NCBI GenBank assembly: GCA_028571685.1
Contig: CM053152.1
Location: 24,126,001 to 24,190,000 of the forward strand
Direction of reading: 5' to 3'
From: Heterohyrax brucei
Taxonomy: Eukaryota; Chordata; Mammalia; Hyracoidea; Procaviidae
DNA: 64,000 nucleotides
Shown: piece after piece, positions 6,456 to 59,107 of the stretch
How positions within the stretch are numbered: position 1 is the stretch's first letter
Layout of the letters: every line of letters starts with the position of its first letter
Translations under genes and position numbers: made by a program
Notes under the pieces: generated by a model
What the model was told of the DNA's origin: nothing
The model's input: only the letters and a program-made list of their open reading frames with translations
Databases searched by the model: none

Positions 6456-6569
6456 TTTTATCTCCAACACTTATGTGCTATAAAGCTCTGGATACATCTC
6501 TTCTAGCGTAGAAACAGTGGAAGAGTATGAAGATTGGTTGTTTACGCTTAATCAATCCCTGGTGCCTAG

Positions 6570-6607
6570 CCAAGCCAAGTCAAGTGCCATCGAGTTGGAT
6601 CCAACTA
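6570..6607 (-). mobile_element. Ultrashort RTE-end insertion
   Basis: The text reads ccaagccaag then tcaagtgccatcgagttgg then atccaac. In reverse complement this is the near-palindromic RTE/AfroSINE 3' end with a TTGGC-type tail. A target duplication is only partly visible (cctag versus ctaatag). Confidence 0.6.
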
Positions 6608-8712: not shown

Positions 8713-8746
8713 TCTTGGATCCAACTCGATGGGACTGGGCTGGGGC
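8713..8746 (+). mobile_element. Possible ultrashort RTE-end insertion in the L1 5' UTR
   Basis: The string ttggatccaactcgatggga followed by ctgggctgggg resembles the RTE/AfroSINE 3' end core and its TTGGC tail. It could instead be part of the L1 itself. Confidence 0.35.
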
Positions 8747-9335: not shown

Positions 9336-11220
9336 AACAGGCCAGTAGTCGTTCTGTATATTGAGCTAGTTTATAACATCTGGGGTTCAATACAGAGGTG
9401 CTTACTTTGCCAGCTGGGAAGTGGGACGTATACACCTGAAAACCTGACTGACTTTGAAAGTTGTCAAATACATTTTACTTCTCATTTTAAGACTGCCTAG
9501 AGAAACAACTGTGGTCCATCTTCACAGCATCTCTCCAAGCCTCTATTGACCCACATGCAGCCCCAAAAGCAACAAACGCTGGAGAAAACGGTAACCCAGA
9601 AATCACCCATGGCACCAGAAGACCCCCAAAAGAAACCACTTCAGAACTTCCCAGATGAAAAAGCTTTTCTGAAACTATCAGAAGGTGAATACAAAAAGAT
9701 TATATAGAGAGCCCTCCTAGACCTTATATAAAATGCAGCAGAGCAAAATGAAAAATTAAGCAAACTGTTGAATCTGATGGAACATTGGTACTCTGAAATT
9801 AAATGGATCAAGAACAAAATCAAAGACATAGAAACTTCAATTCAAAGCCAGGAAAACAGAATGGAACAAATGGAAAAGAGACTTTCTGGCTTGGAAGACA
9901 GAGCTACTGACTCCAGCATCTATGAGGAGAAAACAGAAAAAAGAAACAAGAGAAACAAAGAAGCATTAAGAAGCACATGGGACTCAAGAAGTACAATCTA
10001 TGATTAACTGGAGTTCCTCAACAGGGCAAGACACTGGAGAACACAGCAAATATTGTAACTGAGCTGCTGACAGAAAACTTCCCAGAAATTAGGAAATAAG
10101 AGAATATACATATCCAAGAATTATAGAACATCACTGAATATAGATCTCAACAGAAAGACTCCAAGACATATTATAATCAAGCTTAACAAAATGAACCATA
10201 AGCAGAAACTCTTAAAGGCAGCAGGATTCAAAGCAAAGCTCACATTCAGAGGGAAACCCTATAGGCTTTTGTTGTTTTTCTCAGTGGAAGAAATGCTGGC
10301 ATGGAGACAGTCGCATGACACATTCAAAGCCTTGAAGGAGAAGAACTTCCAGCCAAGAATGATATATCCTGCAAAACTATCTTTCAAATATGAAAATGAA
10401 ATAAAGACATTCGTAGATAAACAGAAACTCAGACACTTTGTAGAAACCAAACCAAGGCTACAAGAAATACTGAAAGAATCTCTTGGCTTGAAAGAACAAA
10501 ACCATTAACTTTACGTTTTAGAGGGACACATTGTCCAGAATCCTACTCAGTTAAGGAAGGCTCCCAACACAATAAAAGTTACAATAGTGAAAGAAACAAT
10601 CTGGTGATCATATCATGTAAACTATGATATCATCATATTAAAAAGAGGGATGTACTACAATCATTATAGTGCTTCCAGATGCAGAGGAAGTTGACAAGAC
10701 TGGTAGCAATCAAAATTGGGTTTATATCTAGTTTCTTAAGCAGGATCAAAGGGGCAGCTGTAAAGCACAATAAAGAAGCAACATACCACATCAAGAAATG
10801 TAATGCAGGAGTACAGAACAGATTAACAAGAACAACAGAGAACACATCAACACAAAAATAAACATATCACAATGGCAGCACTGAACACATACCTATTAAT
10901 AATTACGTTAAATGTGAATGGACTGAATGTTCCAGTAAAGAGACATTGAGTGACATCTTGGATCAAAAGACATGACCCATCTATATGTAGTCTACAAGAG
11001 GCTCACCTTAGACTTAAAAATATGAACAAACTGAAAATTAAAAGATGGTAGAATATATATCAAGCTAACAATGAACAAGGAAGAGCAGAAGTGGCAATTC
11101 TGATCTCAGATAAAATTGACTTTAATGTAAAATTCACCACTGTGAACAAGAATGGACACTATTTATTGCTGAAAGTTTCAATACACAAGTAGGACTTAAC
11201 AATATTAAATATTTATGCAT

Positions 11221-11285
11221 CTAATATTAGCCAAGCCAAGCCAAGTGCCGTTGAGTAGGATCCGACTCATGGCACCTAATATTAG
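11221..11285 (-). mobile_element. Ultrashort RTE-end insertion with a 10-bp target duplication
   Basis: A 45-bp insert (11,231-11,275) lies between perfect copies of ctaatattag at 11,221-11,230 and 11,276-11,285, inside L1 ORF2. In reverse complement it reads gtgccatgagtcggatcc, then tactcaacggcac, then a TTGGC repeat tail: the last part of the RTE/AfroSINE 3' end plus tail, and nothing more. Confidence 0.8.
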
Positions 11286-14200
11286 AGAGCACCTAAATAT
11301 GTCAAAGAAATGCTCACTACACTCAAAAAGGAGATAGATCACTCCACAATAATAGTAGGAGACTTCAATACTCCACTCTTAATATTGGACAGATCTTCTA
11401 GAAAAATCTCAGTAAAGCCACAGAAGCCCTACTGCCACAAGCAACCAGCTAGACCTCATCGACATATACTGACATATCCATTAGTGGACAACTACACCTT
11501 CTCCTCCGGTGCACATGGAATAGTCTCCAGAATAGACCATATGTTAGCGCATAAAGCAATTCTCAACAAAATCCATACCACTAAATTAATGCAAAGCATC
11601 TTCTCAGATCATAAAGCCATAAAAGTCTAAATCAATAGCAGAAAAAACATAGATAGAAAGTGGAACTCATGGAAACTAAACAACACCTAGGTCAAAAAAC
11701 CATGGGTTATAGAAGAAATCAAGGATGAAATAAAGAAATTTATGGATTCCAATGAGAATGAAAACACCTCTTACCAGAACCTATGGGATACAGCCAAAGT
11801 AGTGCTCAGAGGTCAATTTATCTCCATTAATACAAGCTTTTGGAAGGAAGAAAGAAACCAAATCAAAGAACAGACCCTACAGCTTCAACAAGTAGAGAGA
11901 GAATAGTAGAAGAACCCCTCAGGCAACAGAAGAAAATTGGTGATCAAAATTAGAGCAGAACTAAACGAATTAGAGAATAGAAGAACAATTGAAAAAATTG
12001 AAAAGACCAAAACCTAGTTTTTGTTAAAAGATCAACAGAATTGACAAACCACTGGCTAAACTTACTAAAAAAAAAAAACAGGAAAGGAAACAAATAACCA
12101 AAATAAGAAATGAGAGGGGAGTTGTCACAGAAGATCCAACAGAAATTAAAAATATTATAACAGAATACTTTGAAAGACTGTACTCTAACAAAACTGAAAA
12201 CCTAGAGGAAATGGACAAATTCCTGGATTTATATCACCTACCAAAATGATCACAGTGTAAAGCAGAACAACTTAATGAACCCATCACAAAGGAAGAGATT
12301 GAAAAAGTCATCAAAAAAATGCCAACCAAAAAAAGCCCGAGTCCAGATGGCTTCACCACAGAATTCTACCAAGCTTTTAGAGAAGAGTTATCTCCAGTAC
12401 TACTAAGACTATTTCACAGTATAGAAAGGGATGGAATACTCCAAAATTCATTCTATGAAGCCAGCAAAACTCTGGTACCAAAGCCAGGAAAAGACCCAAC
12501 AAAAAAGAAGAATGACAGGACGATCTCACTCATGAATCTAGATGCAAAAATCTTCAATAAAATTCTTGCAAATCGAATACAACAACATATCAAAAAAATA
12601 ACCCTTCATGACCAAGTTGAATTCATATCAGGGATGCAAGGCTGGTTCAACATAAGAAAAACAATTAATGTGATCGACCACATAAATAGCACAAAGACGA
12701 GAATCACTTGATCTTGTCTATTGATGCAGAAAAGGCATTGGATAAAGTATAACACCTATTCATGATAAAAAACTCTCAGCAAAATAGAAACAGATGGCTA
12801 ATTCCTTGATCCAATAAGGGTCGTTTATACAAAGCCAACTGCCTATGTCATCCTGAATGGAGAGAGACTGAAACTGTTTCCCTGTAGAACAGGAACTAGA
12901 CAAGGGTGCCCCCTCTTACCTCTCCTATTCAACATTGTACTAGAAGTTCTAGCCAGAGCAATTAGACAAGACCAAGAAATAAAAGGCATCTGCATTGGCA
13001 AAGAAGAACTAAAAATCTCCCTATTTGCAGATGATATAATTGTGTATACAGAGAATCCCAAAGAATCCATAAGGAAACTACTCAAACTGATAGAAGAGTT
13101 CAGCAAAGTCTCAGGATACAAGATAAACATAAGTAGATCAGTAGGATTCCTTTATACCAACGAGATTATTAAGGAAGAATTCACTAAGTCAATGCCATTT
13201 ACTATAGCCCCTAAGAAGATAAAGTACCTAGGGGTAAATTAACCAGAGAAATAACAGACCTTACAAAGAGAACTACAAACCCTTACTATAAGAAACTAAG
13301 AGAGACTTACACAAATGGAGAAACCTACCCTGCTCATGGATAGGAAGACTTAACATTGTCAAAATGTCTATCTTACCCAAAGAAATCCACTTACATAATG
13401 CAGTCCCAATACAAGTTCCAGTGACATTTTTTAATGAGGTGGAGAAACAAATGACCAACTTTGTCTGGAAAGGGAAGAAGCCCTGTATAATCTGTCAGAC
13501 AAACCACAATCATCAGAAGAGAAAATAGATAAATGGGAACTACTAAGAATCAATCACTTTTATCACTTTTACTCATCGAAAGACTTTAGTAACAGAGTTA
13601 AAAGACCACCTACAGAATGGGAAAAAAAATTGGCAACTCTATGTCAGAGCGATGCCTCATCTCCATAATCCATAAGGTACTACAAAATACCAATAAGAAA
13701 AAGATAAATCATCCAATTAAGCGATGGGCAAAGGAGATGGACAGACACTTCACTAAAGAGGAGATCCAGGCAGCCAAAAACACATGCGGACATGCTCACA
13801 ATCATTAGCTATTAAAGAAATGCAAATTAAAATGACAATGAGATACCATCTTACCCCAACAAGGTTGGTCATGAGCCAAAAACTCAAAACAACAAATGCT
13901 AGAGAGGCTTTGGGGGGATTGGAACTCTCCTACACTGTTGGTGGGGTTGCAAAATGGTGCAACCTCTTTGGAAAGCAATCTGGCACTCCCTTAAAAAAAG
14001 GGATATAGATACACTATTTGACCCAATAATTCCACTGTTTGGAATATATCCTACAGAATCGAGGCCATTCACACCAACTGATACATGCACATGAATGTTC
14101 ATTGCCACACAGTCCACAATAGCAAAAAGATGGAATCAACCCAGATGCCCAACAACACAAGAATGGATAGGTAAACATATATTCAATGGAACACTATGCA

Positions 14201-15550: not shown

Positions 15551-15575
15551 AAACCAAAGCCAAGCCAAAGCCAAG
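15551..15575. repeat. Short AGCCAA repeat insertion in L1
   Basis: Where related L1 reads gaaaccaagagaa, this copy has extra agccaa-type units. They match the tail of the ultrashort RTE-end insertions without the core. Confidence 0.5.
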
Positions 15576-17347: not shown

Positions 17348-17371
17348 CAAGAAGCCAAGCCGAGCCAAGAA
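17348..17371. repeat. 12-bp GCCAAGCC-type insertion between 6-bp repeats
   Basis: The hexamer caagaa at 17,348-17,353 is repeated at 17,366-17,371 around gccaagccgagc. It may be a tail-only insertion or simple slippage. Confidence 0.5.
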
Positions 17372-39757: not shown

Positions 39758-39904
39758 ATAGTCCTTGTCAGTTGTACTTAAAATGACTGATTATTATGAA
39801 ATATGTAGACTCCTTTCTGAAATCAAATAATTTAGCGTATTGCCACTTACACTGCTTATACTTTTACTAAGTTGAGAATCTATGCAAAATTGACCAAAAA
39901 AGTT

Positions 39905-40128
39905 TTCAATCTCCTTATATGCATGCGAAAGCTGGATAATGAATAAGGAAGACTGAAGAAAAGTTGGTGCCTTTGAATTATAGTGTTAGCAAAGAACACT
40001 GGACCTCCAAAAGAATGGGCAAATTTGTCTTCGGAGAATTGCAACCAGAATGAATGTTCCTTAGAATCAAAGAAGGTGATTCTATGTCTTACATACTTTG
40101 CACATATTATTTCAGGAGAGATCCAAAA
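39905..40128 (+). mobile_element. RTE 3' coding fragment, left arm of an inverted pair
   Basis: The text gcatgcgaaagctggataat, ccagaatgaatgttccttag and attctatgtcttacatact is RTE. It pairs with the inverted copy ending at 41,040. The two share a shortened gaacactggacctccaaaag junction not seen in the RTE copies at 57.1 and 62.8 kb. Confidence 0.85.
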
Positions 40129-40589: not shown

Positions 40590-41040
40590 GGCAATAAAGC
40601 TGTTCTTCTACTCATAGTGACCCTATGTGCAATAGAACAAAACACTGCCTGGCCCTGTGTCATCCTCACAATTGTTGCTAGGCTTGAGTATTGCAGTCGC
40701 TGTGTTTATCCATCCCATTGAGGGTCTTCCTCTTTTTCACTGACCCTCTATTTTATGTCTTTCTGAAGGACTGAGCCTTCCTGATAATATGCCCAAAGTA
40801 GGGTCGCCATGAGTCGGATCCGACTCGACGGCACTTGGCTGGCATGTAAGACATAGCCTCACCTTCTTTGCATCTAAGGAGCATTCATTCTGGTTGCAAT
40901 TCTTCCAAGACAAATTTGTTTGTTCTTTTGGATGTCCAGTATTCTCTGCTAACACTATAATTCAAAGGCACCAACTTTTCTTCAGTCTTCTTTATTCATT
41001 ATCCAGCTTTTGCATGCATATAAGGAGATTGAAAATGCCA
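40590..41040 (-). mobile_element. RTE 3' end, right arm of an inverted pair
   Basis: From left to right it is the complement of the RTE terminus through to the complement of gcatgcaaaagctggataat at about 41,010. A 43-bp RTE-end insertion interrupts it at 40,801. Confidence 0.88.
40801..40843 (+). mobile_element. Ultrashort RTE-end insertion, best-preserved core
   Basis: The text gggtcgccatgagtcggatc, then cgactcgacggcac, then ttggctggca interrupts an RTE that other copies show as continuous. The string gagtcggatccgactc (40,811-40,826) is a perfect 16-bp palindrome. A target duplication is not clear, at most gta. Confidence 0.72.
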
Positions 41041-55369: not shown

Positions 55370-56035
55370 CATTCCCCCCAAATTATGCTGAAGTTCTAAC
55401 CCCTGTATGTTAATGAGATTATACCAAAGTAGGATGGGGCAGTGGTGATTCAATGGTAGAATTCTTTGCTTCCATAAGGGCATCCCAGGTTCAATTCCGG
55501 GCCAGTGCGCCGCGTGTGCAGATGTCACCACTTGTCAGCAGAGGCTTTGTACTCCTGTGATACTAAAAGGGTTTCAATGGAGCTTCCAGACTAACAGTAA
55601 CTAGAAAGGCCTGGTGAGGTGCTTCGGCAAAATCAACCCATGAAAATTCTGTGATCGCGGTGGTCTGATCCACAATCAATCATGGGTTGGTGCAGAATTA
55701 CACAGCACTTTCTTCCATTGTGCACGGGGTCAACCACGAGTCGGAGTGATTTGTTGGCAGCTAACAACCACAACTGTGGAATGAGAAGGGTCCTGAACCT
55801 AATCCCTTCTTAGTGATGTCTGATAAAAAGAACAAAACGGAAAGAGGGACACTCACCGGGGCCAACAAGCAAGACCCCACAGCAGGGCAAGGAATGCCTT
55901 GGACAAGGAAGGATGCTTCTCTAGAGCCGATTAATGCCCTGATCTGGACTTCGAGCCTCCAAAACTGTGAGACAAATTATTGTTCTTTAAAGCTGCCATT
56001 TATGATATTTTTGTTATGGCAGCATTAGGTTACTA
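55370..56035 (+). mobile_element. MaLR/MLT1-type solo LTR split by a tRNA-Gly SINE, fossil
   Basis: Left part: cattccccccaaattatgct and ctaacccctgtatgttaatg. Right part: gaacctaatcccttcttagt, cctccaaaactgtgagacaa and ttatggcagcattaggttac. It is non-coding, and older than the SINE it carries. Confidence 0.78.
55435..55775 (+). mobile_element. tRNA-Gly-headed SINE, best-preserved copy
   Basis: The head is a recognisable tRNA-Gly-like sequence with box A tgattcaatggta, an anticodon position reading TCC and box B ggttcaattcc, ending ggccagtgcgcc. The body has RTE 5'-region text (ggtttcaatggagcttccag, aggcctggtgaggtgcttc). The end is RTE 3'-like (gggtcaaccacgagtcggag, gcagctaacaaccacaac). Confidence 0.85.
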
Positions 56036-57536: not shown

Positions 57537-59048
57537 TCTGTTACTAAGTCATCTCAACTTATAAACTACTTTGTAAACGTTACTACTCGTGTCTAAACTG
57601 CTGATCGTTTGGACGTAACATTTCATTTTCGTAATGAAACACATGAAAAACCACAAAATACTGACAACTCCCAGAAGGGATGTGCAGAAAGGAAACAGGT
57701 TCTTTCCTCCTCTTGAGAGCTTGAGAGTTTCTCTCTTCTCCCCTTCCCACAGCTCTTCTCATTGCCTTGTCTCTCCCTCCCCCTCCTTCTTCACAATTTG
57801 GCACATGTCTCATGAGTATTGACACACCAGAGTCATCCTTCTGTGCCTATCACTCTTTCTCTGCCTACTACACCAGGCTGTTGAAAAGGACCTTGTCCTA
57901 CAAAGTCTGAATAACTGACCACAAAGTTCTTGAGACTGACTTTGCTCAAGCCTCACTCCCCTCTCTCCTCCGCGACCAGGCCTCCAGCACCACTTGTTAA
58001 GAACGTCTACAGTGCTATCAGTTCCTCGAAGTACTGTTCTTTCTTTCTCTGTAATAGTAGGGAAACAGCAAACTGTGCATGGCTGTCTTGTCCAGCTAGG
58101 GGAGAGCAGGGTGTCTCTCAGGTTTGGTATGTATTGCCCTCTTGATTTTCCATCCTGTCAACTAGATTGTTTCAAGGGCTTGGGGGTGAATGTTTCTACG
58201 GGACCAGAATTCAGGCAGATGATTTGTGCTAGGCATCTTGTCGGGGAGACACTCGAACAGGCAATGACTGCATGACCATGGTCCCCTTCCCAGGGATCAA
58301 GACTATGTAAGTTGCATGTGAGCAGTAAAGCCCCCTAAGACCTGCTTTAGAGAGCCCTGGCCATCCACACACATGCACACAGAAATGAACTTACTACTGA
58401 ACGTATGGACACCTCTGTCACGGAACATGGCATTCAGTGCTGTAGGTTTTGGAACCTGTAAACCTAAATCCTCATTCTTAGGATTAATGTTGTTCGGGTC
58501 CAGAGAAACACTGCTTCTTGTCTCTCATCTATGTCCTAAAACAAAAGGTTACAGCATCTAATGCCACTAAGTACTATGACACTACTAATCTTTGAGACTA
58601 AGAACCCTTTTTAAGTTCAGTGTGCTTACATGAAAACATTGAACAACTTGACAAATCCTTCATCTCAGATAACATGAAGGTAAGTATTCTTGTGTTATGA
58701 CATATAGTTTACCAAGGGTGAGAATCACTCATTTTGTTGTTTGTCTTGGCTCCTACTGGTGCTTCTATAGGAAGGTAAGGACGAGGACAGTATTTGCAAC
58801 AGTTACACTCAACAACCAAGGCATTTTTTGCAATACAAACAATTCATATTATTCTTAAATTTTTGTGTATAAGTGTTGGAAATACTGAATAGGTTTAGAT
58901 ACGAGAAAGGGATGGCAAAAATCACAAAACAAGTTATAGTAATTTATATGATAAATTACTTTGTAATACATTTTGTGATAACTGATTGTATTGATTCCAT
59001 TACAACGTTGTACACGACATTTAAAATGCATCATTTATTTCTAAATCT
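57537..59048. other. Single-copy upstream flank of TTC39C
   Basis: This is the longest repeat-poor run close to the TTC39C promoter (0.6-2 kb upstream of the island). No exon is supported. Distal promoter elements are plausible but not shown. Confidence 0.4.
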
Positions 59049-59107
59049 GACTATTACTTAGCCAGCCAAGTGCCGTCGAGTTGGATCTGACTCATGACTA
59101 TTACTTA
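59049..59107 (-). mobile_element. Ultrashort RTE-end insertion with a 12-bp target duplication
   Basis: A 35-bp insert (59,061-59,095) lies between perfect copies of gactattactta at 59,049-59,060 and 59,096-59,107. In reverse complement it reads atgagtcagatccaactcg, then acggcac, then a TTGGCTGGC tail. Confidence 0.8.

Follow-up and report, generated by a model that had tools for sequence, protein, structure and literature searches.

Results

A family-like set of hairpin-and-tail insertions in the window

Analysis of the 64-kb window, that is, of the whole stretch of DNA under study, outlined four short insertions that share an RTE-type terminal hairpin, its loop reading GATC, and a CTTGG tail after it. 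We estimate a probability of about one half that these are target-primed insertions in which RTE-clade machinery used a distinct young source and copying ended just past the hairpin. Perfect duplications flank the copies at 11,221 and 59,061, the host was once empty at 11,221 and 40,801, and the four copies have loop and tail in common and carry no upstream body. The RTE machinery, the short-stub mechanism and the single young source are what we infer from the sequence.

The insert at 11,221 occupies exactly 45 bp (11231-11275, minus strand) between perfect 10-bp duplications, ctaatattag, at 11221-11230 and 11276-11285 (both unstranded), as the initial annotation had proposed; an alternative start of the duplication is one base earlier, at C. 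In a chance test based on 4000 random 42-bp footprints in the window, given the same placement freedom of ±12 bp, repeats of 10 were obtained for 3/4000 footprints and longer repeats for none. Read on the minus strand, the insert presents the RTE/AfroSINE 3' terminal hairpin with its GATC loop, then GGCA and finally the tail CTTGGCTTGGCTTGG. This agrees with its earlier description as nothing but an RTE-type 3' end and a TTGGC-type tail, the latter reading (CTTGG)3 on this strand. Likewise, the sequence itself and the scan for upstream bodies revealed neither a tRNA part nor a coding stretch within the 45 bp. A plus-strand orientation, with the palindrome read in the opposite direction and GGCAC followed by CTAA resembling an RTE tail, was dropped because the CTTGG end is common to the four copies and the opposite end is variable.

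The host of this insert is a decayed L1 ORF2 (11052-11471, plus strand), interrupted in its endonuclease part between residues 118 and 121. The two host pieces were translated by hand before protein comparison. In the 59-aa left piece (11052-11228), where X replaces one stop, 57 of the 59 residues matched L1 endonuclease residues 62-118 (E 5.8e-14), and the first 40 of the 61 residues in the right piece (11289-11471) matched residues 121-160 (E 7.1e-9); the structures matched are presumably those of human L1. The codons for residues 118 and 121 are separated by 63 nt, of which 55 correspond to the insert plus one repeat and 8 to two codons and a small frameshift. Since the endonuclease extends as far as residue 118 to the left of the insert and resumes at residue 121 to its right, the site was once empty. 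No DNA-level relatives of the host stretch were found within the 64-kb window, and the earlier statement that relatives of this L1 read through without the insert therefore rests on the protein comparison.

The proposed insert at 59,061 was confirmed as a 34-bp copy of the same GATC hairpin/CTTGG type (59061-59094, minus strand), enclosed by 13-bp repeats (tgactattactta, unstranded) at 59048-59060 and 59095-59107, a length reached by 0/4000 random footprints. Searches of the window returned no relatives of its host.

At 40,801, the insertion itself is borne out by empty paralogues, but the repeat amounts to 1 bp only (A at 40800 and 40844). The 43-bp insert (40801-40843, plus strand) is of the GATC hairpin/CTTGG type, and its 23-base core equals the consensus without differences. 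An inverted paralogue of its host, delimited by similarity and by reading by eye (39903-40111, minus strand), is empty at the insertion point: it presents 91.7% identity to the host over the 192 bp starting at the insertion point (39903-40094) and, inspected by eye, reads CAAAGTATGTAAG across that point, with no insert. By eye, the insert is also missing from two more distant paralogues (about 71%), so that empty sites were recovered for two copies, 11,221 through L1 protein and 40,801 through paralogues. The RTE-like segments at 39903-40094 and 40844-41035 lie in opposite orientation, some 0.75 kb from each other. Other long paralogues are about 70-72% identical, below the 91.7% of this pair, which may have arisen by local inverted duplication or as a 5'-inverted insertion.

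The copy reported at 6,570 (6569-6604, minus strand; 36 bp, GATC hairpin/CTTGG type) is probably an insertion, but its repeat is just the 3-bp CTA (6566-6568 and 6605-6607), which is within chance. Its host resembles what we take to be a MIR 3' end, and joining the flanks, with one extra base kept, raised the score against an approximate MIR 3' piece from 24 to 33. A free repeat scan returned 3 bp at 40,801 and 5 bp at 6,570, both off the junctions and at chance level.

Within the window, the suggestion of a repeated class hence holds for four copies with a common GATC loop and CTTGG tail, with duplications of convincing length in two (10 and 13 bp); those of the remaining two span 1 and 3 bp. 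The further site tentatively put forward at 8,713 was not sustained: the sequence is similar, but presents no duplication longer than 2 bp and was therefore not counted as an insertion. This possible degenerate fifth copy (8715-8745, plus strand) is 86.7% identical to the 6,570 copy over 30 bases, begins at the same base and has CpG changes in common with it.

The GATC/CTTGG copies define a separate 3'-end type

To characterize the 3' ends present in the window, a scan was performed with three 33-base queries bearing GATC, GAAT and GAGC loops, at a score of at least 26. It returned 29 rows, which after subtraction of three opposite-strand rows produced by palindromic inserts left 26 3' ends; the 8,713 stretch, absent from these 26 rows, had come up in an earlier scan with other scoring. 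Four of the 26 ends matched the GATC query best and carried the CTTGG tail. The remaining 22, several of them with decayed loops, had GAAT (AfroSINE) or GAGC (RTE) as their best query, and inspection by eye detected the CTTGG tail in 0/22 of these other RTE/AfroSINE ends.

The two groups also differ in what lies upstream. A SINE/RTE body scoring at least 20 was detected in 21 of the 22 other ends, the exception being 55727 (score 16), with 4 of the 21 scoring just 20-27; the threshold of 20 is the 95% point of 1000 random places, a background that itself contains SINEs and has its 99% point at 40. The four GATC copies scored 10-15, against a background median of 14. An upstream body was hence lacking in 4/4 GATC copies versus 1/22 other ends (Fisher p = 0.0003, for a test framed post hoc). 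Neither a bodied copy of the GATC/CTTGG 3' type nor a source element for these copies was found in the 64-kb window. Together, these comparisons suggest that the four GATC copies represent a distinct 3'-end type, rather than remnants of the surrounding AfroSINE or CAA-tailed RTE copies.

Searches with simpler patterns were also performed. When up to 3 mismatches are allowed, the window contains the 16-base hairpin palindrome six times against 0.02 expected, and four of the six are the inserts. Scanning loosely for the junction, over 13 bases with at most 3 substitutions, yielded 19 matches versus 5-14 in 20 shuffles, an excess of about the number of copies already known. Exact patterns of the GATC 3' type in viral and prokaryotic contigs, and of the AfroSINE type in viral contigs, gave 0 matches, results that are uninformative on the host genome.

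Two stretches of the window resemble the tail on its own. At 15554-15575, an L1-like stretch contains a perfect two-copy 11-bp tandem, CCAAAGCCAAG, similar to a lone CTTGG tail. It may be a tail-only insertion or a local expansion, and its alignment to four further L1 stretches in the window favours neither. On the minus strand at 17354-17369, a tail-like stretch lies between 7-bp direct repeats (CTTCTTG GCTCGGCTTGG CTTCTTG), with no paralogue in the window.

Divergence of the copies

Divergence was assessed over the 23-base core. The GATC copies presented 7/32 differences at CpG positions and 1/60 at other positions, a comparison in which the reference favours low divergence because it was built from the same four copies. 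The corresponding values were 62/128 and 29/240 for the 16 GAAT copies and 23/48 and 28/90 for the 6 GAGC copies, rows 1713 and 55727 being counted as GAGC instead of GAAT in view of their tail and body. The difference between the GATC copies and the 16 AfroSINE-type ends yielded p 0.009 for CpG and p 0.014 for other positions. Ungapped placement misaligns partial copies among both the GAAT (5088, 5707, 6298) and the GAGC ends (22882, 55727, 62508). Removing the three GAAT copies by hand gave 47/104 CpG and 14/195 other differences, still above the GATC type. In this small sample, the four GATC copies are less diverged and look younger than the other ends.

Hairpin structure and target sites

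A stem closed by a 4-base loop is predicted for the 44-base consensus (-15.8 kcal/mol). By eye, the 6-bp stem is common to AfroSINE and RTE ends, with different loops. The 59,061 and 6,570 copies, which carry stem CpG changes or lack a 5' part, no longer fold into the hairpin.

In PMC13295347, RTE-clade elements are described as targeting Tn-TA sites, with insertion at TA and three Ts about 10 nt upstream. Inspection by eye identified this arrangement in both copies with real duplications, where TTT lies 8-14 nt upstream and TA at the first base (tatttaggtgctctc followed by TAAT at 11,221, and tttttaaaatgct followed by TAAG at 59,061); TTT and TA occur together at a random place with a frequency of 0.0079. 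The 40,801 and 6,570 copies have TA at the junction as chosen and no T run upstream. The 3' flank of the former begins with ATG rather than TA, so its nick would fall between T and A.

Discussion

Proposed target-primed insertion by RTE-clade machinery

We propose the following mechanism for each insert. RTE-clade LINE machinery, probably RTE1_LA-like, would act on an RNA whose end consists of a 6-bp stem closed by a GATC loop and, after it, a short (CTTGG)n tail. Priming on this tail would start from a nick beside a TA dinucleotide, and the reverse transcriptase would then copy the tail and the terminal hairpin. Copying would stop no more than about 10 nt beyond the 5' side of the hairpin, or slightly within it, so that the inserts measure 34-45 bp. 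The narrow length range would reflect RNA held by the enzyme, either as a protected short stub or because copying is given up just beyond the hairpin, and not random truncation along a long RNA.

The distribution of the insert ends is informative in this regard. The tail end is common to the copies and the other end varies over about 13 nt around the 5' side of the hairpin. LINE 5' truncation has this polarity, as does target-primed reverse transcription that stops very early. Given that the hairpin is mostly or wholly copied through, a simple block at the hairpin cannot explain the lengths, and the spread of the 5' ends makes a single RNA with a fixed 5' end a poor fit. Against RTE-clade target-primed insertion counts the sample of four copies in one window, two of them without a convincing duplication or T run.

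Other explanations

The closest competing explanation, which we regard as quite possible, is 5' truncation of the ordinary kind taken to an extreme: an RTE or AfroSINE subfamily of greater length, bearing the GATC loop and CTTGG tail, would exist elsewhere in the genome and the window would happen to contain only its shortest copies, with the machinery unchanged and no separate class. The differing 5' ends of the copies fit this scenario, and the 40,801 copy continues into GGGTCGCC, near the corresponding sequence of AfroSINE/RTE copies in the window, so the source RNA must be at least slightly longer than the inserts. This kind of insertion also has a precedent, since Lepidoptera are known to have truncated RTE 3' ends that carry simple-repeat tails and are flanked by duplications (PMC2887409). 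These RTEs keep a reverse-transcriptase coding end, according to the same paper, whereas the inserts are 34-45 bp long and noncoding. Ordinary truncation is harder to reconcile with the lack of any bodied copy of this 3' type in 64 kb, where 21 of the 22 other ends are bodied, and to find four copies out of four below 46 bp would presumably be unusual with truncation points distributed over hundreds of bases.

Mobilization of RNA fragments by L1 rather than RTE enzymes, in the manner of the tailless retropseudogenes of therian genomes, appears improbable. PMC5322556 describes L1 as inserting truncated RNAs with duplications, the second nick falling 8-30 nt away, and tailless retropseudogenes resemble the inserts in being truncated RNA copies with target-site duplications. 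As portrayed in that source, they differ from the inserts in being L1-dependent, tailless and derived from many RNA kinds, and all four inserts carry a simple-repeat tail and an RTE-type 3' end. Moreover, the clear sites, C/TAAT and T/TAAG, each preceded by a T run at a distance of roughly one helical turn, present the RTE pattern. The L1 target pattern is TTTT/AA. Finally, it is very improbable that the copies are DNA-level remnants, internal bits that deletion or conversion spared from longer AfroSINE/RTE elements, for although the repeats of merely 1 bp at 40,801 and 3 bp at 6,570 would suit such an origin, the CTTGG tail is found in 0/22 other 3' ends, two sites carry duplications and the host was once empty at 11,221 and 40,801.

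Possible significance

Beyond RTE-clade target-primed insertion as such, we advance more tentatively the possibility of a young class of afrotherian retroposons barely above 50 bp, consisting of promoterless RTE hairpin stubs with a pentanucleotide tail, in which the enzyme would copy only the RNA that it covers. If genome-wide counts agree, the inserts would mark the smallest RNA insertable by an RTE-clade enzyme and help define the needs of RTE 3' hairpin recognition. They might also provide homoplasy-poor markers for afrotherian phylogeny, possibly missed by present annotation, and would constitute 34-45 bp indels carrying CpG-rich palindromes. Inserts this short may escape the usual repeat-masking cut-offs, and if the ultrashort class is real its copies could be many and uncounted.

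Relationship to known elements

No ultrashort RTE/AfroSINE class appeared among the matches listed for the open PMC literature. The 3' ends of LINEs of RTE1_LA type (PMC3747384, Table 1) share with the inserts the terminal stem and a lead-in similar to GGGTCGCC. The RTE-like ends of the window differ from them in their GAGC-like loop and, in 5/6 by eye, a ACTAACAAC-like tail, where the inserts present GATC and CTTGG.

AfroSINEs (AFRO_LA and PSINE1, paired with RTE1) share with the inserts the 3' GAGTCG-loop-CGACTC stem and the GGCA end. Those of the window possess a body, a GAAT-like loop and, by eye, often G/T-rich tails, all of which the inserts lack. AfroSINEs carry a tRNA-derived promoter (PMC3747384, Table 1). 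In the inserts, the RTE-type hairpin is present with a different loop, and both a tRNA-related promoter part and a body are absent. Nor do they contain the internal Pol III promoter of a strict SINE: at 34-45 bp, the inserts are too short for A and B boxes at their usual spacing. The sole Rfam match of the window at the gathering threshold is a tRNA at 55439-55509 (33.4 bits), perhaps the head of a SINE, and it lies away from the inserts.
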